NCBI RefSeq assembly: GCF_001625215.2
Contig: NC_030387.2
Span: 37,347,606-37,411,605, forward strand
Length of the DNA stretch: 64,000 nucleotides
Direction: 5' to 3'
Origin: Daucus carota subsp. sativus
Taxonomy: Eukaryota > Streptophyta > Magnoliopsida > Apiales > Apiaceae
Shown here one piece after another: positions 1,671-50,212 of the stretch. The notes under the pieces were generated by a model that saw nothing but the letters and a program-made list of their open reading frames with translations, had not been told where the DNA came from and searched no databases. A program made the position numbers and the translations under genes. Numbering within the stretch: the stretch's first letter is position 1; every line of letters begins with the position of its first letter.

Positions 1671-3161
1671 TTAAAGCTTCACAACTTCCGGAATATGCAC
1701 CGGATATCTGTCAATGCAGTCTTGCCACGGCCCGTCCGCCGGCGTCTTAACCGTCCGATTACACTTCCACACCGCACTGTTGCATTTAAATCCACTCCCG
1801 AACGCGATTTGCCACACTCGGTCACCTTTTTTCATCCTCCCCTTGGCCTCAATATAGCTCATTTCGTACCATAATGAGGAAGATGAGGTGTTTCCAAAGC
1901 GGTGAAGCGCCATGCGGGAGGCCTCCACGTGTTCAGCCGAGAGCTGGAGATTCTTCTGGAGCTCGTCGATGACTGCACGGCCTCCCGCGTGGATGCAGAA
2001 GTGCTCGAACGCCAACTTGAAGTCGGGAATGTAGGGTTTCCATTTAGGGTTAAAGATTTTTCGACCAATGAGAGTGAATAAAAAGAGCAGCTGTTCGGAT
2101 GCAGGAAGGACTAATGGACCGATTGTCGTAATATTCGATTTAAGAGCTTCGGCAGCAATTGCCATGAGATCTTTCGACAAATTAATCCCGCACTTCCCTT
2201 GCGCATCCTCCTCTTCGTAAACACACCGAAAGGCCTTATCGTCGCCTCCTTTATGAGTCCGAACCACACGAACCAACCTGTACTTAGCTCTCGACCTCTC
2301 GCGACGCTTGTTCGATAGCAGCATGGCCGCGCCTCCCATCCGGAACAAGCAATTCGGAAGCAGCATCGCACGCTCTTTCCCTTGATAATAATTCGGTGTA
2401 ATGATCTCGGTGCTGACAACAATTGCGTTCGAATTCGGATGCGTTTGGAGTAAATCACGAGCCAGATCAATCGAAATTAAACCAGCGCTACATCCCATTC
2501 CGGACAAATTAAAGCTCCTGATATTACTCCTCAGCTTATACTTGTTCACAATCATAGCGCTCAACGAAGGAGTGGGCGAGAACAAGCTACAATTCACAAT
2601 CAAAATATCAATATCTTTCGGCTTAAGTCCCGTTTTCTCAAACAAGGCATCAATACTAGAAAATATCACAAGCTCCGCCTCGCCTCGTGCCGCCTCCATC
2701 GTAGGCTTCGGAGGGATGTAATGTATCGCGGGAGGCAGACACGTCTCCTCCCCGAGTCCAGACCGCTCCAGGATCCGCATCTGGAAGTCCACTGACTTAG
2801 GGTTTTCCTTCAGGATCAGTCTCGAATGCTCCATGAACGTCGCGAAGGGGACTCGAAACGTGACAGGCGGCTTGTAGCATGCATAGTCCACTAAATAAAT
2901 CGATCTCGGCTTCGACATGAAGTACACTGTTGAGATAAAAATAATCAGGAACGTCGAGCACAAAACCTGCAGAGTGTCGAGCTGGACAGACTGCGCCATC
3001 GCAAGCAGCTCATGCGGTCCGATTCGCAGAATTTCGAGAGCAATCGAGGCTATGATCGGTACAAGAATAAATGTGAGAATGTGGTTGATCAGGTACTGGT
3101 ACCCTAGCTTCACATACTTGAGCTTCACGGAACTGGTAAAATTCGGCAAAATTTGAGCCAT
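1671..3161 (-). CDS. 3-ketoacyl-CoA synthase (VLCFA elongase condensing enzyme), KCS4-like
   Basis: A single uninterrupted exon of 496 aa. The family catalyses the first condensation of very-long-chain fatty acid elongation (acyl-CoA plus malonyl-CoA) in the ER membrane, feeding waxes, suberin and sphingolipids. Two hydrophobic N-terminal segments (about residues 24-44 and 67-82) fit the usual ER anchor. A FAE1/type III PKS-like catalytic domain follows. The catalytic triad is in place: Cys224 in GMGCSAG, His391 in CIHAGGR and Asn424 in RFGNTSSSS. The C-terminal DCIDRYPVHIPEVVKL matches the KCS4 branch as I recall it, more than KCS9 or KCS11. The length is slightly below the usual 500-516 aa because the N terminus is short. 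The Met at 3161 is the only reasonable start. Nothing suggests decay. Confidence 0.95.
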   Translation of the reverse strand: MAQILPNFTSSVKLKYVKLGYQYLINHILTFILVPIIASIALEILRIGPHELLAMAQSVQLDTLQVLCSTFLIIFISTVYFMSKPRSIYLVDYACYKPPVTFRVPFATFMEHSRLILKENPKSVDFQMRILERSGLGEETCLPPAIHYIPPKPTMEAARGEAELVIFSSIDALFEKTGLKPKDIDILIVNCSLFSPTPSLSAMIVNKYKLRSNIRSFNLSGMGCSAGLISIDLARDLLQTHPNSNAIVVSTEIITPNYYQGKERAMLLPNCLFRMGGAAMLLSNKRRERSRAKYRLVRVVRTHKGGDDKAFRCVYEEEDAQGKCGINLSKDLMAIAAEALKSNITTIGPLVLPASEQLLFLFTLIGRKIFNPKWKPYIPDFKLAFEHFCIHAGGRAVIDELQKNLQLSAEHVEASRMALHRFGNTSSSSLWYEMSYIEAKGRMKKGDRVWQIAFGSGFKCNSAVWKCNRTVKTPADGPWQDCIDRYPVHIPEVVKL

Positions 3162-14226: not shown

Positions 14227-15394
14227 GGGAAAATAGATTTTCTTGCCACTCAACTTATAGTGTTTTTAGAAACTTACCACCCAACTAATTTTTTTATTAT
14301 TTTAGTCACTAATGTTAGGTTTGGTTTTATTTTTAGCCACCAACTTAGGTTTGAATTTGATTGCCGGCATTATTATAATTTTTTTGTCACTAAACTTATT
14401 GCGTTTTTAGAAACTAACCACTAAACTATAATTTTTTTATTTTACTCACTAGTGTTAGATTTAGCTCTCTTTTTTTTGTCACTGAAGTTAGATTCAGATT
14501 TGATTATTAGCATTACATTTTATGTGTATCATTATTAAAATATAATGGTAGTCGGTAATATTTTGATGATTTGATATATGTTTGTATTTTTATATGTAGT
14601 ACTTTTTATGTCTTCAAGGTCGCTTACCTTGGATGAAAAGAATTTTACACGCATTATGTGGCCTTTAAAAGATGTAGTTTCATATATAACTTTATTTTTT
14701 TCTTCCGAATGAAAATTCAGCGTTTGAATTTTTACACACAAAAATAAGTTATGAAACTATGTTTTATAAGAATCTTAAATACATGCTAAGCACTAGAGAA
14801 AATTTGTAAACTAATGAGAGGGACGGAGGGAGTAATAATAATATAAAATGATGCATTATATATAGAGGACAATCATCGAAAATTAAGTTTTCCTCTCTAT
14901 TTATTTATCTCGAAAATTATAATAAGATAAAGTTATTAAAATTTTTGAAGATAAATTTAAAAGAGATCTTAGACTGAGCTAGTCCATTGAAAGTTTAATA
15001 GCGAAAGATGATGCGTCATATCACTCAATTACACTTTATCTTATGAGAGAGGGTGAATTGTTTAAAATCATTGATTTCATATTCATGATTTATTGAATTT
15101 TTAGAATCTAATTACTATTTTTCCTGATTTTAATTTTTCATTGGCTCATATTATATTATTATTGCTATATATAAGGATATAAACATACGACACATCATCA
15201 AAGATTAGATACTATAACTATGTATAAATGATGCTACAAAAAATTATCATAATGCTAGTAATCAAATCCAAACCTAAGTTGGTGGCTAAAAACAAAACTA
15301 AACCTAACATTAGTGACTAAAAGAATAAAAAAATTAGTTGGGTGGTAAGTTTCTAAAAACATTATAAGTTGAGTGGCAAAAAAATCTATTTCCC
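14227..15394. mobile_element. Mutator-type MITE (1168 bp) with duplicated terminal segment
   Basis: The ends are inverted: GGGAAAATAGATTTTCTTGC on the left, and GGGAAATAGATTTTTTTGCC from the right on the other strand. The inverted similarity continues for about 130 bases through CCACCAACTTAGGTTTG. A perfect 9-bp duplication, ATTTTTGCT, flanks it (14218-14226 and 15395-15403). Just inside the left arm, about 14380-14510, the terminal text occurs a second time in diverged form (TTTTTAGAAACTAACCACTAA then ACTCACTAGTGTTAGATTTAG), so the left arm holds two tandem copies. No credible protein is present. Confidence 0.85.
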
Positions 15395-37875: not shown

Positions 37876-37884
37876 TTTATATTA

Positions 37885-38818
37885 GAGTAAATCACAAAGA
37901 CGTGGCTAAATTTTACACCGATTTGCAAAAATATGGCTGAATTTTAAAAATGGCAAAAATTTGGCCAACATTTAACTCCGTTTTTCAATTTGTTGGCTGC
38001 CGTTAAATCTGCCCTAACAGAAGTAACGGAGCAAAGGGTAATTGTGTATTTATGAAATTATAATTGGGATGAACTCATGACAATAGCATACCATTTTCAA
38101 TACAAAAGTGAATACATCTAAATCTCTGTATATGAATTGATTGACAATCATGTATTATACAGTGGTAATTTAATCGATTAGAGGCCCAGACTCAACACGC
38201 ATCAGATTGAATATATCAGTAACTTAGTGCCTCCCACGGAAACAGCTAGGTAGCTTGGCCCCATATGTGTGTGTATATACAATTTTCATCTCACCTATGA
38301 GATACACGATGGTTGAAGGTAAAAAGGGGATGTAGGAAGGCAGTGGTTGGAAAAAATGTTGGGTTGTTCCAACATTGTTTGTGTATATGAATTGGAGTTG
38401 AAGAAGGGGGCAGGGGAGGTCGAATTGGATGTCTGGTGGTTGTAGCCGTGGCTGGTGGTCGTGGCCGTGATTAGACGAGAGGGAAGAAAGAGAGGTTTCG
38501 TGAGGCTGACTAATGAAGTAGGGACATGGTCGGAGTGTCTGGCAGCGGCATAGTGACATGATCGGAGCATGTGACAGCGGCCCAACATGATTGAACGGAA
38601 AAAAAAGAAAAGGAAGGAGGGTGTGGAGAGGAATAGACCAAAATACCCTTTGATTTTATGTTTTTTTAATGAAGTTAACGGCTGACATTAACGTTTCTAA
38701 GGGCAGCCAATAAATTAAAAAGCGGAGTCAAATGTTGGCCACATTTTTGTCATTTTTAAAATTCAGCCACATTTTTGCAAATCGGTGTAAAGTTTAACCA
38801 CATTCTTGTATTTTACTC
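37885..38818. mobile_element. Mutator-type MITE (934 bp)
   Basis: The ends are inverted: GAGTAAATCACAAAGACGTG on the left against GAGTAAAATACAAGAATGTG from the right. The arms stay similar for about 150 bases through AAATTTTACACCGATTTGCA and the GGCTGCC..AACGG block. A perfect 9-bp duplication, TTTATATTA, flanks it (37876-37884 and 38819-38827). The core contains a GT/GC-richer segment (38400-38600) whose frames show no recognisable domain. Confidence 0.88.
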
Positions 38819-38827
38819 TTTATATTA

Positions 38828-39369: not shown

Positions 39370-42300
39370 TCACATGGACAACGGTAATAACATTCTTCTT
39401 TCCCTCTTTTTTGCGAGTGCCTGCCTAGAACTTCTCAAGCAAATGGGAAGAAGTATACCAAGGCATACAATGAAAAATGAAAGCCAAAAGTGTCGGAAGT
39501 AAAGGGTCACATATGACGAGATAACCAGGACGGAGGAAAGTATGGCATACAAAATTGCCACAGTGACATCAATCCTGCACAAGGTCAACATAATTTCTTA
39601 GATAATACACAGCCACATGTATATTAAGATTATATTTCTAGGAGGCCTTATGAAGAGGTCATATAAGTAGACATCTGTAAGGAAACTATGTAATGGGAAA
39701 AAAAAATCTGAAATTAATAACAGAGAGGTTGAGCGAGTGCAGATATTAATTCACTTGTATCGGAGACAGAAAACTTGGATATTTTAAAATATGTTCAACA
39801 TAGAAGCATAAGTGTAGCTTGATCAAAGTCACAGTAGAAAGCTGAACACCTAGTCATTATAAAGTACTATAACTGAAGCAAATTTCAGAGACTGACTGGG
39901 ACTGCTATGAGGAAATCTATTATATAAAACTGCCCTAAAAAATTTTATACGAGGAAGTTTGTGCAGTGGCATCTATGCACTCAATTGCTCTGCCATCACA
40001 ACCCTCTTTTCACATATGAAACCCTATTGTGTAGTGTTTTCATTACAAGTTTATCTTAACAATGTTTTCCACTTCAAGTGACAATACTCGTGTACTATAT
40101 GGCCTTTTCTTCTAAACAATCAACATATAAGGTTCCGATTCTGTGCATAGGACATAAATGTTTGCAAGAGAAGGGTTTCTAAATGTGTTGTCAATTTTTT
40201 TTAATCTTGAGTCACATCTGATAGAATTTTGACTGTATGATCCCTCATGAACGACTGAAATGTGGATCCGTGAAGTATACATAATCAGAAACGAAAGATT
40301 TTAATCTTTTATGACTTTTAATTGAAATGTGTAAGATCAATGTTCCATCTGGTAATATGTTTCAACCTAGAAAGTTGGGATTCTTAACTCACCCACCGCA
40401 GTGCGCACTCGATTCTTTGGTGCACAAGGATTCTTGTTAAATAATTAATTCTGTCATTAGTTGATTACTTAATCACTTGACTACTTATAATGCAACAATT
40501 GTGTTATGAATAATTATTATCTAGATTATTAAGGATAATTAACTTATTTATGACTATTTACTTTAAATATAAATGTAACTCTTGAAATACATGCATCATA
40601 TATATTTTAATTATTCTAATATTTGCTGAATAACCACACATCCAAATCCCCATAAATTCCTTAATTTATACATGTTCGAGATGAAGATACCCATCAAGAA
40701 AAGATCAGCCAAGATCTATTACGAGTACGTTAAATTTGTGAGCATATTAATCTTAAAAGATTAGATTGTAGCTGTAAACAGGTGAAGTCATGAACAAGTT
40801 ACAGAGAGAAAAGTATAATGTATATTGCCAAAACTTACTCTGTACATTACATCCTACAGTTTATATATACAGTTCATCTAACAGACTAAGTGGAGAGGTG
40901 TAACTAACTTCTAACCACCTTTCCCTCCTCCTCTATCTAGTTGATTATTTACATTTGTACCCTTCTGACTTTGACTTAAATTATCATCTTGCTTGGACTG
41001 TGATGTATCCTCAATATCCCCCCTCAAATTAGGAGGTGTGAAAATGTTCAACACTCCTAATTTGCCAAGAAGGAATGTGGTACGAGCAGCTGTTAATGCT
41101 TTGGTGAATAAATCTGCAGGTTGAAGATGTGTAGACAGATATGTAGGAATGATGAAGCCTGCTTTGACCTGATCCCTGACCAGATGACAATCCAGTTCTA
41201 TATGTTTAGTTCGTTCGTGTAGGACTGGATTTTCTGCAATCTGAATGGCAGAAGTGTTATCACAATATAGTGGAATTGGAAGCTTTGGTTTGAAATGAAG
41301 TTCAGTTAAGAGATTGTAGATCCATTTGATCTCACAAACAGCATTAGCCATAGATCTGTACTCGGATTCAGCTGAACTTCTAGAGACAACTTGTTGTTTC
41401 TTGCATTTCCAGGCAAGTAAGGAATTTCCAAGCATAACACAGAAGCCGGAAACAGATCTTCGAGTCATGGGACATGCAGCCCAGTCAGCATCACAATAAA
41501 TCTTGAGTTGCATATCATTTGAGGATGACAAAAGTAGACCTTGACCAGGTGCTTGCTTGAGATATCTAATCAATTTTAAAGCTGCAGCCCAGTGCTCAGT
41601 AGTAGGTTGTGACATGAATTGACTGAGTATGTGTACTGGATAGGACAGTTCAGGTCGAGTTATAGTGAGATATATCAACTGTCCTACAAGCCTCCTATAA
41701 GATGTACCATCTGTAAGAATTGTTCCAGAAGTAGTGCTGAGATTATGTTGAGCTTGAAGAGTAATAGGACTAGGTTTACAGCCAAGAAGACCAGTCTGCT
41801 GCAGTAAATTCATGGTGTACTTCCTCTGATGTAAATAAATTCCATCTTTTGATCTTGCAATTTCTATCCCTAGGAAGTAGTGTAAATGACCAAGATCTTT
41901 GAGCTTGAAGTGAGATTGGAGACAAGTTTTGACATCAGTCATAGCAAGATTTGATGATCCAGTGAGAATGATATCATCTACATATACCAGTAAAGCTGTG
42001 AATGTGGTGGATGTGTGTAAGACAAACAGTGAATTGTCAGCCTTAGATTGTGTGAAGCCATACTTGAGTAACACCTGTGAGAATTTATAGAACCATTCTC
42101 TCGGGGCTTGCCTTAAACCATACAATGATTTAATCAATTTACAGACAGGTCTGGTACCCTTGAAGTTTGGTGGAACAAGAACACCTGGTGGAATTTCCAT
42201 ATAAATTTCCTCATGTAGATCACCATGGAGGAAAGCATTGGTGATGTCTAACTGATTGAGTGTCCAATTTTGAACAGCAGCTAAAGACAGTATAATTCTC

Positions 42301-45300
42301 ACAGTAGACATCTTTGCAACAGGTGCAAAGGTTTGGAAAAAATCCACACCTAAAGTTTGAGTAAATCCTTTGGCTACTAACCGAGCTTTATATCTCTCTA
42401 CTGTTCCATCAGCATTATATTTCACTTTGTAAATCCACCTGCAACCAACAGCCTTTTTATTTGGTGGAAGGTCAACAATCTGCCAAGTATTGTTGGATTC
42501 AAGTGCATTCAATTCAATTTGCATTGCCTGACACCATGATGGATCTTTGACAGCCTGTTTATAATTTGGTGGTTCCATAATTTTCACAGAATTTGCCAGA
42601 AAACTCTGATATGGAGCTGACAGATGCTCAGTAGAATCAACTTGCTGAATTGGATAAAGTACAGTGGTGTTAGCAGATTTAGTCAGAAACTGAGGTAAAC
42701 CTGAGAATTCTTTATATTTTGTAGGTATTGCCTTCTGTCTTTGTGGTCTAGAAGGTAGTTGAGGAGGCATTGTAGAAGTCTGAGGTAGACTAGAACCAGA
42801 AGTTACTTTGTTACCAGAACCAGTTGTGGGACTAGAATCAGTAGTGTTACTAGAACCAGTTGTGGGACTAGAATCAGTAGTGTGATGAGAAGCTGTGGGA
42901 CTGACTAAATTCTGCTCATCTGAGTCATTTTGATGATGAGAAAAAATTGTTGGAGGTGTTGTAGGTTCCTGAGGAGTAAGATGTTGTTCAGGTGTGCCTA
43001 AATCATCCACAAAGGTGTATGTGGGAGGAAACATATTGATATTGGACTTTGGTTTATCTGAGAATGGAAGATAGACTCATAGAAGGTTACCTCTCTAGAT
43101 GTGAAGCATTGCCTAGTTTCAAGATTCATAAGTCTATAACCAGTTTGGTTAGGAGTGTAACCAAGAAAAACACATTTGTAAGCTCTAGGAAAGAATTTAT
43201 CCTGCCTTTTTGATAAAGTTGAAGCATAACAAAGACAACCTAAAACTCTGAGATGAGAATATTTAGGTTTCTTTTCAAACAACATTTCAAATGGAGACTT
43301 GTTGTTGAGTAGAGGAGTGGGAGTTCTATTTATGAGATATGTGGCTGTTAATAAACAGTCACCCCATAAGTATAAAGGTAGAGAGGCTCTGAATCTAAGT
43401 GCTCTAGCAACTGCTAAAAGGTGTCTGTGTTTCGTTTCAGCTCTGCCGTTTTGTTGTGGTGTTTCAACACAAGATCTTTGATGAACAATACCTAATTTGT
43501 TGAATAAGCAGACAAGATTGTGATTACAGAACTCTGTTCCATTGTCAGTTCTGACAAATTTAACAGAACTTGTAAAATGGTTCTGTACATAAGCAAAGAA
43601 TTTTTCAAAGATAAGAAGCACTTGAGATTTATGAGAGATGAGATAAGTCCATGTGCATCTACTGAAATCATCCACAATTGTTAAGAATGAATTACAAGTA
43701 GAATATGTTTTGCACTTATATGGACCCCAAAGATCACAATGTATGAGCTCAAAAATTTTAGTAGCTCTATTTGTGCTAACAGGAAATGGAAGTCTACAAT
43801 GCTTAGCAAAATGACAAATATCACAGTGAAAAACATCATTCACTGACATTTGAGAAGACAAGCAATCTATGTTTTTCATGACAGTGACTGGAGAATGCCC
43901 AAGCCTGTCATGCCATAGTTGAGAAGAGCTGTGTTGTTTAGTAGCAGATAGAGAATGGGAAGATGCAGATATATGTGCAGAAGAAATAGTACTTGTTGGA
44001 ATGATCAACTTGTACAAATTGCCATGAAGCCTACCAATCCCCACTATTTTCTTCATAGGGGCCTGTAGGAGACAATGTTGAGAAGAAAAAAGCAATGTGC
44101 AGGACAGAGATTGAGTTAGTTTACTCACAGAAATTAGATTAAAACTAAATTCAGGAATGAGTAAAACATGCTCTAAACAAAGATCAGGAGTCAAAACTAC
44201 TTTGCCTTGATGATGCACAATTGTTATGTGACCATTAGGAAGACAGATACTGACATTGCAAGGTGTTATTGATGTTAAGAGATGTGGATGACAAGTAATA
44301 TGGTCTGTGGCACCTGAATCTAATATCCAGTCTGTAGAAGAGTGACATCCAACTAAACAGATAGATGTAAAAGAGGAACACATGTTACCTGACTGTGGAA
44401 CATCAGAAACATTAGCAGTAGAAAGTTGAGACTGGTTGAGCAGAGATAGCAGTTGTTGATACTGATCTGTGGAAAATTGTGGCATATTCATGTTGTCAGA
44501 AATCACCTGTTCTGTAGTTGGAGTTGCAGATGAGTTTGCAATCACAGTAGAATCAGTGTTGGTGACATTGTTGGCAAATTTTGGAGAAGTGTTTCTTGGT
44601 GGAAAACCAATCAAGCGATAGCATCTGTCCTTAGTGTGATTTGTGCCATGACAGTAGGTGCACTCTAGGTTTCCCTTTCGAGGCTGAGCCTTGTTTGATT
44701 TGTCAGATTGACCTGATTTCTTGAAATCTGGCTTCTGAAAGCGTGAGTTGTATGAGACATTCTTAGACATTAATACAGCAGATTCAGGAGTAGAAGAGAC
44801 AGAGTGAGAGTAGTTTCTCTGTCTCTCATCTTGTTGTAAAAGACCTAAAACCTGAACTAGTTTAGGCATAGGACTCATCATAAGCAATTGACCACGAATG
44901 TTCGCAAAATTCTCATTCAATCCCATCAGAAAATCAGTTACTTTCATGATCTCATCATGTTGTTCAGATTCAGCTCTTGCTTTGCAAACACAAGGAGTTT
45001 TCAGAGTATTCTTGACATTGACAAACTCATCATACAACTTCTTAAACTTCGTATAATAAGCTGAAACAGAGAGTGTGTCTTGTGACAAATTTGACAGCTC
45101 TTTCTTCAGTTCAAAGAGCTTAGGACCATTATGATGATTAAAACGACTATGCAGATCATTCCACATGTCAGATGCAAGTGAAACATAACATAGACTAGAT
45201 CGAATCTCAGGCACCATGTCATGATCTTAACAACTAGAACAAGCAATTAAAGCTACCGAACATAAAAGAAGAGTACTGGAAAGGAAAATGCAGAGAGAAT

Positions 45301-48300
45301 AAAAGATAAAAACATTCATTCCATTTCATACCCAGCAAAGTAAGAGTAATATGTTTACTTATAGTACGATTCTATGTTCTACAACTATTGGGCTTGAAAA
45401 GGTCACCACTAAGTCCGAGAGTACAAGTTGGCTCACTATATATTTTCTAGCCCAATTCGTGACATCTCCACTCCTTCAACACATCCTTGTCCTCAAGGAT
45501 GCAACTTAAAGAAATCGTGTATTCAGCTTTCACCAATGCTTGCATATAGCTGCTGCTTGTATTCCATTTTCTTGTTGCATCAAGTTCCAAGCCCTTCTTT
45601 GTCGCAGAAGCCAGCTTCTTGCCATCATACTCCTTAAGCTGTCCAACAGCATACTCATCAATTGCATCCACCATGAAGAGGACCTCATAGCCCCTCATCT
45701 TGGGCCTCTCCAGGAATTGAAAATTCTCAACTGTCTTCTTGCTCTCACCAGTTATGTAATATATATCCTTCTGACCTTCCTTCATCCGTGTAACATAATC
45801 CTTCAGACTAGTCAGCTCCTCCCCGCTCTTGGTCGAATGGTACCTTAGCAAGTCTGCCAATTTTGCAATGTTCTGACTGTCCTCTTGGATTCCCAACTCC
45901 AAATTCTTTGAAAAAGCTTCATAGAACTTGGCATAGTCATCCTTGTTTTCAGCTATCTCATTGAACAGTTCAATGCACTTCTTCACAAGATTCTTTCTGA
46001 TGACTTTAAGTATTTTGTGCTGCTGTAACATTTCACGAGAGATATTGAGAGGCAAATCATCAGAGTCAACAACACCTTTGATGAAACCCAAATACTGTGG
46101 AATTATATTCAGAACATATGCTTCATGTATCATCATCGACTCAAATACCACTAAACCACAGCCACCATTTGTGTGCTCAGTAGGAAGTGTGCTTGGCCGT
46201 GAAAGAGCACCCAATTTGCTCCCAATTTGTGCAGCTTTCTTGTCGGATTTCTTTTCAATTGCAGAACTTTGTTGTGAAATGGTGATCTTTTGGCTACTGA
46301 TAGTTCCAGTCTTCACCTGGGATAATGATGCCTGCTGCAGTTGAGAATTAGTTTCATCTAATTCCTGAAAACTATCAGAATTGCTGGTGGGTAAAATTTC
46401 ATTTACTGTCATTGATTTATCAACCATTGTTGAACCTTCATCTGCATGACTTAATTGGAGTGTCTCAACCCTTTGTCTATCAATGGCTGCAGCTTTTAGT
46501 TGAGTTACTAACGATTGCTGCAGTTGCAACTTCGCTTCATCTAATCCCTTGAAATACTTTGGCCTGACAACATTTGTAACCCGTTTCGGACCTGGCAGTT
46601 CCTTATCACCTGTGGCTTCAATAATTGTGTCCATTATATCTGATGGTATTGCAACAAGCTCTGAAGTCACATCCGTAGTCTCCCCATCAGGCTCTATTCC
46701 ATGGAGCATTTTCTTTGACATTGTTGTTGGGGAAGTTTGTTCAAACTGTGTACCGCTTTGAGCTGGTTCCGCATCATCATTGTTGTCTATACTGACAGGA
46801 TTATCACCTGAAAACTCGCTAGTTTCGCCATCGTTGCTCTGTGAGCATGCTATATCTACTTGCAGTTTGTCCAATTGTAAATTTCCAGACTTGAACCCGA
46901 TATCAGTTTTTTCACCAGATATACTTTGTTCACTATCAGAGTGTGTACTTTCCTTTCTAACCAAACAACTAACTTCCTCTGTTGAATTATGAGGAATCTG
47001 ATGACTTGAAGAATTCTCATAAAGAGACAGAAGAGATAAATTCCGACAGGTTTCTTTATCTAGTTCTTGCTGAGTACTTCTCTCTCCTTCACAATTTTCA
47101 TGGACTATTTCTTTTGTGCTTCTGCAAACTGGTTTCTGTGGTGAAGTTGGTCCCCCCAAGTTAGCAGCTCCATCTTTGGCAACTTCTGATTTTGAAGGCA
47201 TTTGCACATCCGTCAAAGATGTGTGCGACTTCTCCTTACTCAAGGAATTCGGTTCGCTACCAAGTTGGCTATCAAACTTTGATGTGGTATCTCCCTCAGA
47301 TGCTCCAATGATTTCTTTAAAGTGGGTCCCAAATCCTAGACTCCCACTTATGCTTGGAAAAGGTGATGTATCTTGGTTTGCATTAGTTTGCTTAGATATC
47401 TTGCCTGAGATCGTCGCGAAATTAAAATCGTCAAACCCATCAAACTCGAGTATTGCAAGCACTGTCTTCAAAACAGTTGGGGCACACTCAAATTTGCCAC
47501 ACCTTGAGTACATCTCGACAAATGATGACTCCACAAAGTCATACAATCCTAAATGAACATTGATTGCAGATCCTCGTATCCTCTCATTTAGCCATTTTAC
47601 TATGGCATCCACAGTTATAAATGCAACTTTTTCTGATCCATGAAAGTGTGGTTGTAGATCTTGGTTCTGCTCATGAACAAACTTGGCCTCTTCTTCGGCA
47701 AACAACTTACCGTATTCATTTTCCTGAAGCTTAGAAACTGGAATCATGTCATACCCGGTAAAATGATAGACAGAATCATTATTCACGGTTTTTTCACTCG
47801 ACTCAACAACAAAAAGAACAGAATCAGCTTGAGGGCTCACATCAAACACTTCAGGAGCATATTTACCAGTTTCTAATACTTGAGATTGTTTAAAAGTCTC
47901 ACTATCATCAGCAACTATATTCTTAACTCCACAAAAATTATTTAAACCATCAACAATGGAGACAATAGCAGGCGTAGTAAGAGACTGATTTACCTTATTT
48001 GAGGACATTTCCTTAACTGGATTTGACAAATCAGCAAGACGCTTCTCCATTCTCTCAAGCACGTGAATGATTTGAATACGTGTATCCTCCCACTGCTCAT
48101 TTGATTCAACTTCCCTATATTGATACTGAGACCTGCCTTCACAAACTTCCGGACAACGTTCAAAAACATTCACATGAACCTGATTCGGTAAAGATGCCAC
48201 TATTTTCTTCTCCGTGATCAACTTACTAATTGCAACGAGTTTTTCATCTAACTGAGTGACCTTACTATCTAATTGATGCAGAAAACCCTTGGTGGTATCA

Positions 48301-50212
48301 GTAATTAGCATTGGAGATCTGGTAAGATAAGGTGTTTCGGGAGTAGTGTTGGAATAATATGATGGTTCTGGTGGTGGTTGAATATGATGGTAAACATGCG
48401 GAGGTGTTGGAGGTGGTGTATACTGGTGTAGAGGAGTTAGAGGTGGGTACGGATGATAGAAATCATGGGTGAAATTAGGGTTTTGAAAGGGGTTTGAAGA
48501 GTATGAAGCGAGAGGAGAGTTGATAGTAATTGTGCCGGCCATGTCCGAGAAATCGGTGGCTCTGATACCGATTGTCATGATCTTAACAACTAGAACAAGC
48601 AATTAAAGCTACCGAACATAAAAGAAGAGTACTGGAAAGGAAAATGCAGAGAGAATAAAAGATAAAAACATTCATTCCATTTCATACCCAGCAAAGTAAG
48701 AGTAATATGTTTACTTATAGTACGATTCTATGTTCTACAACTATTGGGCTTGAAAAGGTCACCACTAAGTCCGAGAGTACAAGTTGGCTCACTATATATT
48801 TTCTAGCCCAATTCGTGACACACCATAGAATTTAACATCCAGGTAATAAGCATATCATTACAGCGTTGCCATGGATCAAAATAAGGAGATGAAGTACCAG
48901 GAATCTTGAATTTACCAGTAACAAATCCAAGCTTGTTCTTCGCAGATAGTGCCAGAGTCATGGAGTGCTTCCATTCATTGAAATTATCTCCATCGAGAGC
49001 AGCAGAAACAATTATCTGTCCAGGATTATCTGAAGGATGCAGATACAAAGGATGACTGGATTCCAGAGAAATTGCAGTGAAGTCAGTATCAAAATCAACC
49101 GAAGATTCATCGGAGATGTGCGGATCAGCGTCATTAATCGTCGCCATAACTGTTTGTTGAAATGCTTGAGAGACTTTGAGAAATGAAACGAACCAAAGTA
49201 ACAGAAAAGACAAAAAATAACTAGAATCAAAGCTTGCAACAATGGCGGAATCGTGTTGCTCGCTCTGATACCATGTAAACAGGTGAAGTCATGAACAAGT
49301 TACAGAGAGAAAAGTAAAATGTATATTGCCAAAACTTACTCTGTACATTACATCCTACAGTTTATATATACAGTTCATCTAACAGACTAAGTGGAGAGGT
49401 GTAACTAACTTCTAACCACCTTTCCCTCCTCCTCTATCTAGTTGATTATTTACATTTGTACCCTTCTGACTTTGACTTAAATTATCATCTTGCTTGGACT
49501 GTGATGTATCCTCAATAGTAGCCTATGCTTAAAATACAAGCCTCTTCCGGTCTACGTTCTACAAAAACCAACCAGTACCTACTATCACTAATTCATTTTG
49601 TTCTTCAGCTCATTACAACAGAACCACATTTTCACTCAAATAATACACAGTGCAACATCCATATTACTCCCCCCCGTCTCAAATGACCTGTCTTGAGAAT
49701 TGAACACAGAAAGTTAAACAAGACATTTGTTTTAGGCTGGATGTTGTCATTAACTCACACCTAAAGTGACCATATATCATTTAAAAGTGCAAGTCATCTC
49801 AACATTTCTATTATGCAATGAAATTAATATCAGAATCATCAGTGATCAAACTTTTAAACACCAAAATTTAACCCAACTTCACATCTTTAACTAATTAATA
49901 TTCATAAGTAATATACTTATATAGTTATATACATACAATTAGCAACATACTAAAACTTTTTAGTCAAGAGTGTCAGAATAAATAGAACAGAGAGAGAGAG
50001 AGAGGAGGGAGGGAAGAGGGAGAGAGGGGGGGGGGGGGGGGGGGGGGGGGGGGAGGGAGGGAGAGAGAGGGGTACCAGGAAGTAATTTGGGGTTTAGGAG
50101 AGAACAAGGTGAGAGCAGAGCATTTATGTTGCGATCGGATCTGGTAGTCTCTGAGTTGCTCAGCGAGCTTAGCACGAGTTATCATTATTATTTTCACCGA
50201 TTCAAAATCCAA
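39370..50212 (-). CDS. Small two-exon membrane protein of unknown function, intron carrying nested LTR elements
   Basis: Exon 1 is 50212-50076 and exon 2 is 39574-39370. The donor TTCCTG|GTACC and acceptor TTGTGCAG|GATTG join in frame, forming Trp46 from TG|G, and the total is exactly 113 codons plus stop. The reading is [20 protein letters not shown], a soluble basic/polar start with [10 protein letters not shown]. Two hydrophobic helices follow in exon 2 (about residues 49-70 and 75-95), with FRHFWLSFF between them. A basic tail ends [14 protein letters not shown] recall similar short plant proteins but no function for them. Met10 (50185) is an alternative start. The intron is 10,501 bp; removing the Copia insertion and one 5-bp duplicate leaves about 1.75 kb. 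No break is seen in either exon, so the gene may still work if the intron is spliced. Confidence 0.7.
40773..41016 (-). repeat. Copia 3' LTR
   Basis: 244 bp; matches the partner at 49274-49517 with about one difference. It is preceded on the minus strand by a polypurine tract at about 41017-41030. Confidence 0.93.
41050..42500 (-). CDS. Copia pol: reverse transcriptase and RNase H region (fossil)
   Basis: Landmarks in minus-strand order are a [20 protein letters not shown] segment, LVAKGFTQ, the [13 protein letters not shown] box, the RT active-site motif YVDDIILTG, and the RNase H part with [16 protein letters not shown] and [13 protein letters not shown]. This order is diagnostic of Copia pol. 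It is part of the interrupted element and is described only as a domain remnant. Confidence 0.93.
43070..45216 (-). CDS. Copia gag C-terminal part, protease and integrase region (fossil)
   Basis: In minus-strand order: a UBN2-type gag segment (WNDLHSRF... [11 protein letters not shown]), the CCHC zinc knuckle [14 protein letters not shown], the protease motif [10 protein letters not shown] at about 44.3 kb, the GAG-pre-integrase HDRLGH box, and the integrase core (HCDLWGPYK, then [10 protein letters not shown]). The 5' part of gag is separated from this by the nested element. Confidence 0.93.
45217..45464 (-). repeat. Nested element 3' LTR
   Basis: 248 bp, TG...CA ends; identical by eye to 48573-48820. 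Confidence 0.93.
45447..48542 (-). CDS. Single long reading frame of the nested retroelement, with Hsp90 middle-domain homology
   Basis: The frame is open for 1031 codons from the first Met after the primer-binding site ([13 protein letters not shown]), and it ends about 18 bases into the 3' LTR. It also remains open upstream into the 5' LTR to a Met at 48602. The N-terminal region is Pro/Tyr/His-rich ([20 protein letters not shown]), followed by a heptad-like segment ([19 protein letters not shown]). The middle is acidic, Ser/Thr-rich and unrecognised. Around residues 813-992 it matches plant cytosolic Hsp90: [20 protein letters not shown], then [53 protein letters not shown] and [15 protein letters not shown]. 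That is the Hsp90 middle domain only, without the ATPase or dimerisation domains. A host-derived segment carried by a retroelement is the simplest reading; whether it is translated is unknown. Confidence 0.8.
45567..46106 (-). other. Captured Hsp90 middle-domain segment
   Basis: About 180 codons with strong similarity to the second half of the middle domain of cytosolic Hsp90, including the SREMLQQ loop that contacts the ATP gamma-phosphate in the intact chaperone. No introns interrupt it, consistent with capture through an RNA intermediate. Confidence 0.88.
48573..48820 (-). repeat. Nested element 5' LTR
   Basis: 248 bp; identical by eye to 45217-45464; followed on the minus strand by the GGTATCAGAGC primer-binding site. 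Confidence 0.93.
48821..49160 (-). CDS. Copia gag N-terminal part (fossil)
   Basis: A minus-strand reading including [34 protein letters not shown] and [20 protein letters not shown], the UBN2_3-type gag start of plant Copia elements. It stops at the nested element. Confidence 0.85.
49274..49517 (-). repeat. Copia 5' LTR
   Basis: 244 bp; pairs with 40773-41016. The TGGTATCAGAGC primer-binding site directly follows on the minus strand at 49262-49273. Confidence 0.93.
49518..50075. other. Intron remainder with low-complexity purine tract and possible MITE end
   Basis: This is the 5' part of the intron of the 113-aa protein gene. At about 49666 an ACTCCCCCCCGTCTCAAATG string resembles one Stowaway terminus, but no partner end was found. 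From 49988 to 50070 there is a GA/G-rich tract. Confidence 0.4.
50026..50053 (+). repeat. 28-base G homopolymer next to a splice donor
   Basis: An uninterrupted G run (C on the transcribed sense strand), preceded by an AG-repeat and GGA units, lying about 22 bases downstream of the donor of the 113-aa membrane-protein gene. A run of this length is prone to slippage and may be of uncertain length in the assembly. Confidence 0.9.

Follow-up and report, generated by a model that had tools for sequence, protein, structure and literature searches.

Bs1 of maize is the best known plant retroelement that has transduced several host genes. Elrouby and Bureau described it as an LTR element whose hybrid reading frame takes in segments of host genes, and the available passages on it portray one cargo set, from H+-ATPase, xylan endohydrolase and beta-1,3-glucanase genes, together with a gag domain (PMC13317346, PMC8616336, PMC7264820, PMC11963269). 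LTR-captured genes with mixed neutral and purifying patterns were reported by Jiang and Ramachandran from rice, sorghum and maize (PMC3726574); the words 'heat shock', 'hsp', 'chaperone' and 'intron' are absent from the main text of that paper. Retroviral RNA is exposed to nonsense-mediated decay when its 3' untranslated region is long, and Rous sarcoma virus, whose full-length RNA is exposed in this way, is described as carrying an RNA stability element (PMC2925335, PMC5580461). Our literature search, outside which most subscription journals lay, found no report of Hsp90 or Hsp70 capture by retroelements and none of several host genes carried by a non-autonomous LTR element. No paper was found on nonsense-mediated decay and plant LTR elements.

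The window analyzed here is a stretch of 64,000 nucleotides from carrot (Daucus carota subsp. sativus, NCBI RefSeq assembly GCF_001625215.2, contig NC_030387.2, positions 37,347,606 to 37,411,605 of the forward strand). It contains a complete LTR element of 3,604 bp at 45217..48820, with coordinates exact to the base. The explanation that we favor, and hold to be fairly probable, is that this is a non-autonomous LTR retroelement carrying pieces of spliced host mRNA, which would be kept as stop-free filler for an unbroken frame. The features of the element and of its insertion site are as follows.

48821..48825, no strand: right target site duplication CACCA, abutting the element
48573..48820, minus strand: 5' LTR, 248 bp, TGTCA...TGACA, 100% identical to the 3' LTR
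48559..48569, minus strand: putative primer binding site GGTATCAGAGC, a few bases past the 5' LTR
45447..48578, minus strand: single open reading frame (ORF) of 1,043 codons, from an ATG built by the last LTR bases into the 3' LTR
47439..48578, minus strand: element-specific, proline-rich N-terminal region, with a similar region in relatives
46160..47444, minus strand: captured host gene X, joined exons, 87-93% identical to G000:C1 (L040)
45578..46106, minus strand: captured Hsp90 middle-domain segment, 93.3% identical to the HSP90 gene G000:C3:41478809 over 526 bp
45465..45577, minus strand: 3' end of the element, motif ATCCTTGAGGACAAGGATGT and purine-rich tract, immediately before the 3' LTR
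45217..45464, minus strand: 3' LTR, 248 bp, with the ORF stop codon inside its first 18 bp
45212..45216, no strand: left target site duplication CACCA, abutting the element
40773..49517, minus strand: Copia element split by the insertion (host site), LTRs at 40773-41016 and 49274-49517

Paired LTRs, the 5-bp target duplication, the primer site and the purine tract are those of an LTR retrotransposon, and GGTATCAGAGC is presumably the complement of initiator tRNA-Met, i.e., a tRNA-Met-type primer site. Counted from a TTG, the same minus-strand frame extends over 45447-48602 and 1,051 codons, with the ATG at 48578; its stop codon ends at base 18 of the 3' LTR. Pfam gave no match in the ORF to polymerase, integrase or protease families, that is, to the pol genes required of an autonomous LTR retrotransposon (reverse transcriptase, RNase H, integrase and protease), and the element is non-autonomous. 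Terminal-repeat retrotransposons in miniature (TRIMs) are very short elements without coding capacity, and this class was rejected for a 3.6-kb element whose frame has about 1,043 codons. Among the genome matches inspected (assembly of 441 Mb, 11 contigs), there was no autonomous partner. The LTRs of the Copia element at the host site (244 bp) are 99.59% identical and differ at one position, indicating that the insertion at 45217..48820 is young. The young Copia element itself (40773-49517) shows gag, integrase and reverse-transcriptase-like frames, and its gag is split by the 45217..48820 element. Elsewhere in the window, we observed a 496-codon frame at 1671-3161 (minus strand) that we take to resemble 3-ketoacyl-CoA synthase, an inverted repeat at 14228-15394 with 157-bp arms of 93% identity, possibly a small DNA transposon, and a smaller inverted repeat at 37884-38819 (122 bp, 87.7%).

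The ORF consists of three main parts. In the numbering of a 1,034-residue query protein, residues 1 to ~370 were found solely in the element and its relatives, residues 373-823 matched gene X on C1 (L040), and residues 816-991 matched Hsp90, with the C3 gene as the top match. We take gene X to resemble At4g18490, an Arabidopsis gene of unknown function. A first-pass annotation of this DNA, made from the letters alone, had described a gag-like N terminus followed by an unrecognized acidic region. The gag-like description is not supported, and the acidic region needs correction: no Pfam gag match was obtained in the window ORF, the predicted fold of the N-terminal region was an unusable model (mean pLDDT 29), and the acidic region is gene X, a second captured host gene. 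Among the relatives described below, Ty3_capsid was detected under the Pfam cut-off in L060 (E 0.076) and L062 (E 0.16) and was absent from L061 and L063. An NCBIfam search returned nothing beyond Hsp90, Hsp70 and Gar1. ORF residues 341-377 (window 47472-47582, minus strand) bear a weak resemblance to PPR proteins (E 0.032) and are possibly a third host fragment.

The Hsp90 part, a middle-domain segment of 176 residues, was assigned by Pfam to residues 831-1018 of the ORF (8.3e-87), covering only profile positions 169-356 of 518, and the best PDB match of the ORF was an Hsp90-beta chain (3pry, 7.7e-76). Further HSP90-like loci with long matches in the protein search of the genome showed 78-86% amino-acid identity. 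The central claim of the first-pass annotation, a recent non-autonomous LTR element with host Hsp90 in one long frame, is borne out; the block matches HSP90 where a failure to do so had been named as the outcome that would overturn the claim, and the SREMLQQ loop is kept, as reported. A functional Hsp90 needs the N-terminal ATPase, the complete middle and the C-terminal dimerization domains, and this designation was set aside for a segment restricted to 169-356 of 518.

Gene X matched L040 DNA in four exons with 92.8, 90.3, 91.6 and 87.0% identity. Three clear exon joins in the element, at element positions 2200/2201, 2386/2387 and 2569/2570 (near 46621/46620, 46435/46434 and 46252/46251 in window numbering), fall where L040 has GT..AG introns. 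A fourth join, at the 5' edge (47437/47436), is marked by eight bases, TTTGATGG, that match the last bases of the upstream exon, a weak sign alone. Since the exons are joined without introns, capture went by way of mature mRNA, and the gene X portion is a copy of spliced RNA. Likewise, the Naf1 piece of the relative on C9 is without both introns that separate the three exons it matches in the host gene C5:42457282-42459136. The Hsp90 piece also lacks introns, as the first-pass annotation had noted, which is true but uninformative because the C3 HSP90 gene matches the segment uninterrupted, inside a 568-codon open frame. Intron loss in Hsp90 was therefore dropped as proof of mRNA capture in favor of gene X and Naf1, for both of which the exon comparison shows mRNA-mediated capture with joining in frame.

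A genome search with the 248-bp LTR, as the first-pass annotation had proposed, yielded at least four full-length matches (two in the window and two on C4) and at least four partial ones. The copy on C4 (L009) is 97% identical inside to the window copy and likewise carries gene X and the Hsp90 piece; its LTRs are identical to each other, and it has its own target duplication, ATGGA. Its Hsp90 reads SRKMLQQ instead of SREMLQQ, with 12 residues missing shortly before the loop. This copy ruled out a single-copy curiosity, and the fusion was mobilized after capture. The C4 copy sits in what is presumably a cytochrome P450 gene. It contains a nested LTR element (L009 1241-5742, G000:C4) with 790-bp repeats 99.87% identical, in which no stop-free run exceeded 223 codons. 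A host chimeric gene or an assembly artefact in place of a mobile element would account for a long intact frame and for near-identical copies numbering only two, but it is barely credible when the two copies lie at separate sites, where each is bounded by a 5-bp target duplication of its own and has two identical LTRs, and the window copy is nested in a Copia element. The possibility that the element was absent elsewhere and its LTR pair an artefact, which the first-pass annotation had named as a refuting outcome, is answered by the second copy with its own duplication.

Searching this genome at the protein and the DNA level added eight further loci, giving ten elements with seven cargo sets, some known from weak hits alone and all from one genome. 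L060-L063 were chosen as loci newly matched by the N-terminal part, apart from the LTR-like hits to residues 1-91; a weak match at C1:48669499 and host Hsp70 hits were left out. The relatives and their cargoes are listed below.

C9 (L042): N-terminal part, Gar1/Naf1 (9.9e-10) and Hsp70 (4.8e-31); LTRs 98.8% alike
C5 (L055, L053): N-terminal part, KH/zinc-knuckle, RRM (7.8e-17), Hsp90 (1.5e-15) and Hsp70 (1.3e-55); 5' LTR not seen
C2 at 24.9 Mb (L056): N-terminal part and two short Hsp90 pieces (Pfam 22.1 bits, cut-off 24.4)
C3 (L057, G000:C3:5918300-5922000): 922-codon frame with a faint Hsp70 remnant; 373-bp LTRs identical
C1 (L060, L061): frames of 949 and 880 codons, importin-beta N-terminal domain (2.1e-15, 2.5e-15) and HEAT repeats
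C2 (L062, L063): frames of 796 and 760 codons, weak GATase_5 match (0.001, 0.01; below cut-off)

The relatives have similar N-terminal parts and 3' ends and carry other host coding pieces in the sense direction and largely in frame, so that the whole looks like a family that keeps acquiring pieces of host genes; both these relatives and the second captured gene had escaped the earlier reading. The N-terminal proteins are linked at 31% (C9 and window), 38% (C3 and C1) and 30-33% (C3 and C2/C9) identity, and links at 30-38% would by themselves be weak evidence of common descent. The primer site is exact in the window (C7), C4, C9 and C3 elements has one-base changes in L060, L062 and L063 and was not seen in the remaining three, and ATCCTTGAGGACAAGGATGT or a close variant at the 3' end also ties the groups together. 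LTR pairs across the measured elements are identical or 98.8-99.8% alike. The C9 frame consists of two overlapping frames. In the C5 element, KH (6.6e-5) and zf-CCHC (0.022) are both below the Pfam cut-off, and the long stretch that splits the element we take for a nested insertion. The Hsp70 remnant of L057 was recognized by Pfam at 0.0022 (under the cut-off) and by PDB at 1.2e-4; the insertion is recent, as its 373-bp LTRs are identical, and the frame beside it is presumably part of a NAC gene. L060 and L061 are 99.6% alike, with the 5' LTR of L061 not seen. A further 5' fragment, L043 (C2:22.976 Mb), has stops in every frame. The names SF1 (for an SF1-like cargo), transportin and PurL are our presumption from Pfam hits alone. 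RNA-binding cargo was observed as RRM, with weaker KH and zinc-knuckle, in C5 and as the RNA-binding region of Gar1/Naf1 in C9.

Donor introns were seen to be removed in two of the seven cargo sets (gene X and Naf1). Five of the seven contain Hsp90 and/or Hsp70 sequence, in C2 and C3 only below the Pfam cut-off, and the other two sets are without any chaperone match. Such recurrence of Hsp70 and Hsp90 pieces could reflect stress-linked capture, in which the activity of the elements coincides with an abundance of heat-shock mRNAs and these are taken most often. We regard this as unlikely: a GAAnnTTC or TTCnnGAA pair was present in none of the four LTRs scanned, the number of three-unit sites at two mismatches was 1-3 in these LTRs against 0.9-1.5 in shuffles, the sample is seven cargo sets from one genome, and Hsp mRNAs are abundant without stress too. 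LTRs driven by heat-shock elements were rejected, with no perfect pair in the four LTRs. Capture linked to stress accounts for the choice of cargo and not for its retention, and it is therefore compatible with the filler explanation.

The Hsp70 pieces of C9 and C5 have nearly equal internal deletion ends relative to the host gene, with three coding deletions, and these near-identical ends suggest that both elements probably inherited the piece. In C5, the Hsp90/Hsp70 junction falls at a short match between both messages. In the 125 bp of Hsp90 that can be compared among the C3 gene, C5 and the window element, C5 alone has nine changes and the window element alone has one; a further one is shared and is also the base of a paralogue. 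The Hsp90 pieces of L056 show 87-91% DNA identity over 32-60 bp to the host loci L014 and L015 and 78% to the C3 gene. One ancestral Hsp90 capture was rejected, as no clear derived change is common to C5 and the window element and the L056 pieces fit other paralogues better. At least two Hsp90 captures probably took place, with exchange between elements as the alternative to separate capture for the Hsp90 of C5.

We then compared amino-acid and silent changes. In the comparison of the window copy with the C4 copy, 20 substitutions fall in the N-terminal part and change 10 amino acids, where 15.2 changes were expected (P 0.008, neutral simulation), whereas gene X and Hsp90 together have 32 substitutions with 21 changes against 22.9 expected (P 0.28); the whole frame has 52 substitutions (P 0.018). 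The N-terminal dN/dS was 0.46 (0.30-0.80) for C9 vs C5 and was not significantly below 1 for window/L043 (0.59, 0.32-1.23), C9/C2 (0.50, 0.25-1.36), L062/L063 (0.64, 0.41-1.04) and L060/L062 (0.73, 0.47-1.27). The tail common to L060 and L062 gave 0.23 (0.08-0.67); the overall value for this pair (0.68) was set aside because the alignment pairs cargoes that have no homology. For the cargoes, dN/dS was 0.88 (0.50-1.57) for Hsp70 of C9 vs C5 and 0.77 (0.48-1.32) for L062 vs L063, and the cargo amino acids are under no significant constraint between copies. Against host genes, the Hsp90 of C5 gave 0.97, over 42 codons only, and gene X gave 0.77, which is uninformative because the host gene itself gives 0.96 against its paralogue. 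The Hsp90 of the window copy gave 0.23 (0.11-0.44) against the host gene, a value that stands against full neutrality but is no proof of constraint in the element, because the host gene is strongly conserved and contributes some of the silent change. The dN/dS check that the first-pass annotation had suggested gives a signal of constraint for Hsp90 against the host gene and no significant one for the cargo between copies.

That annotation had also raised a chaperone role in particle assembly. A fusion whose Hsp90 or Hsp70 piece gives a particle protein its chaperone or client-binding function would agree with chaperone sequence in most cargo sets (five of seven, including two below the Pfam cut-off), with the better match of the short C2 (L056) pieces to other HSP90 paralogues and with the value of 0.23 for the window Hsp90. 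We nevertheless judge it very improbable. Only fragments are carried: the window copy is without the ATPase domain, C5 has ~42 Hsp90 residues, the Hsp70 of C9 and C5 has three deletions, and 12 residues near the catalytic loop are gone from the C4 copy. The cargo changes between window and C4 copies (21 against 22.9 expected) and the dN/dS of 0.88 for C9/C5 Hsp70 and 0.97 for the 42 Hsp90 codons of C5 also speak against the role, as do the two cargo sets without a chaperone match.

A different result was obtained for the openness of the frame. L062 and L063 differ by 206 substitutions in the frame, with 140 amino-acid changes against 138.3 +/- 5.8 under neutrality, and contain zero stops, an outcome reached in 1 of 5,000 neutral simulations (P 0.0002). 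Two indels separate their ORFs (12 and 3 nt), both in frame; their 5' LTRs (383 bp) differ by 55 substitutions and five indels (1, 1, 1, 1 and 11 bases), none a multiple of three and all upstream of the frame's first ATG. With a cruder model and 222 substitutions, the absence of stops had P 0.0015, and with half of them P 0.02. Codon counting gave a dN/dS of 0.72 (0.53-1.04) for this pair, leaving room for mild amino-acid constraint. Tests for the absence of stops gave P 0.01 for the window cargo against the host genes (141 differences; P 0.08 with half) and P 0.13 for the Hsp70 of C9/C5 (P 0.33 with half), and in the window/C4 cargo the absence of stops was not significant (P 0.21). Only for L062/L063 is the outcome of the frame test strong. 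In nine of the ten elements (all but L056), the stop codon that closes the longest stop-free run lies close to the first base of the 3' LTR, its end falling anywhere from 55 bp upstream to 98 bp downstream of that point, counting the 3' part alone in C4 and C5 and the second frame in C9. Openness is not universal, as C9 is in two frames and the C5 frame departs from that of C9 before the 3' end.

The cargoes could also be plain passengers, mRNA pieces brought in by template switching to no benefit, with frames still open because captures and insertions are recent. The lack of significant amino-acid constraint between copies agrees with this account, as do LTR pairs that are identical or 98.8-99.8% alike and the unremarkable lack of stops in the window/C4 cargo and C9/C5 Hsp70. 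It is a possible account, though to our mind a doubtful one, given that L062 and L063 have accumulated 206 substitutions with no stop and in-frame indels only, and that the 922-codon frame on C3 persists though its Hsp70 remnant is barely recognizable.

Under the filler explanation, a relative would act in trans as the source of integrase and reverse transcriptase, host mRNAs would be packaged alongside the element RNA, and the reverse transcriptase would change template at short matches, placing a host coding piece between the conserved ends. Less certainly, selection may keep an unbroken frame from the primer site to the 3' LTR rather than the cargo sequence; a stop-free host coding filler would then leave no long 3' untranslated tail, and the genomic RNA might be spared nonsense-mediated decay. 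Host coding sequence would be a natural source for long filler without stops. The wider form of this explanation, that a polymerase-less family selects for an open frame over a protein, with host coding pieces, chaperone mRNAs prominent among them, swapped in as filler that keeps the genomic RNA translatable up to the 3' LTR and whose amino acids drift freely, is plausible, and we advance it tentatively. The combination of neutral amino acids and a protected frame in one well-diverged pair makes it testable whether non-autonomous elements need open frames for the survival of their RNA.

In the available accounts of Rous sarcoma virus, protection comes from a dedicated RNA element, whereas here it is proposed to come from the frame itself, open to the 3' LTR. 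As in the rice, sorghum and maize cases (PMC3726574), host genes lie within full-length LTR elements; that survey counts annotated genes within LTR pairs, and its available passages describe no family that swaps cargoes in a single frame. Maize Bs1 is the closest precedent, compared by description only. Both have an element-derived part fused to several host gene segments in one frame (gene X and Hsp90 here, three genes in Bs1). Unlike Bs1 as described in those passages, the carrot family has seven cargo sets on related elements in one genome, and its cargo includes Hsp90, Hsp70, Naf1, RRM and importin-beta, with no gag domain established. The window element was not filed as a member of the Bs1 family, because the likeness is one of description alone and the gag domain is not established. 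With seven cargo sets in one genome, this family would turn the single case of Bs1 into a system for measuring the rate of capture, the choice of template and selection.
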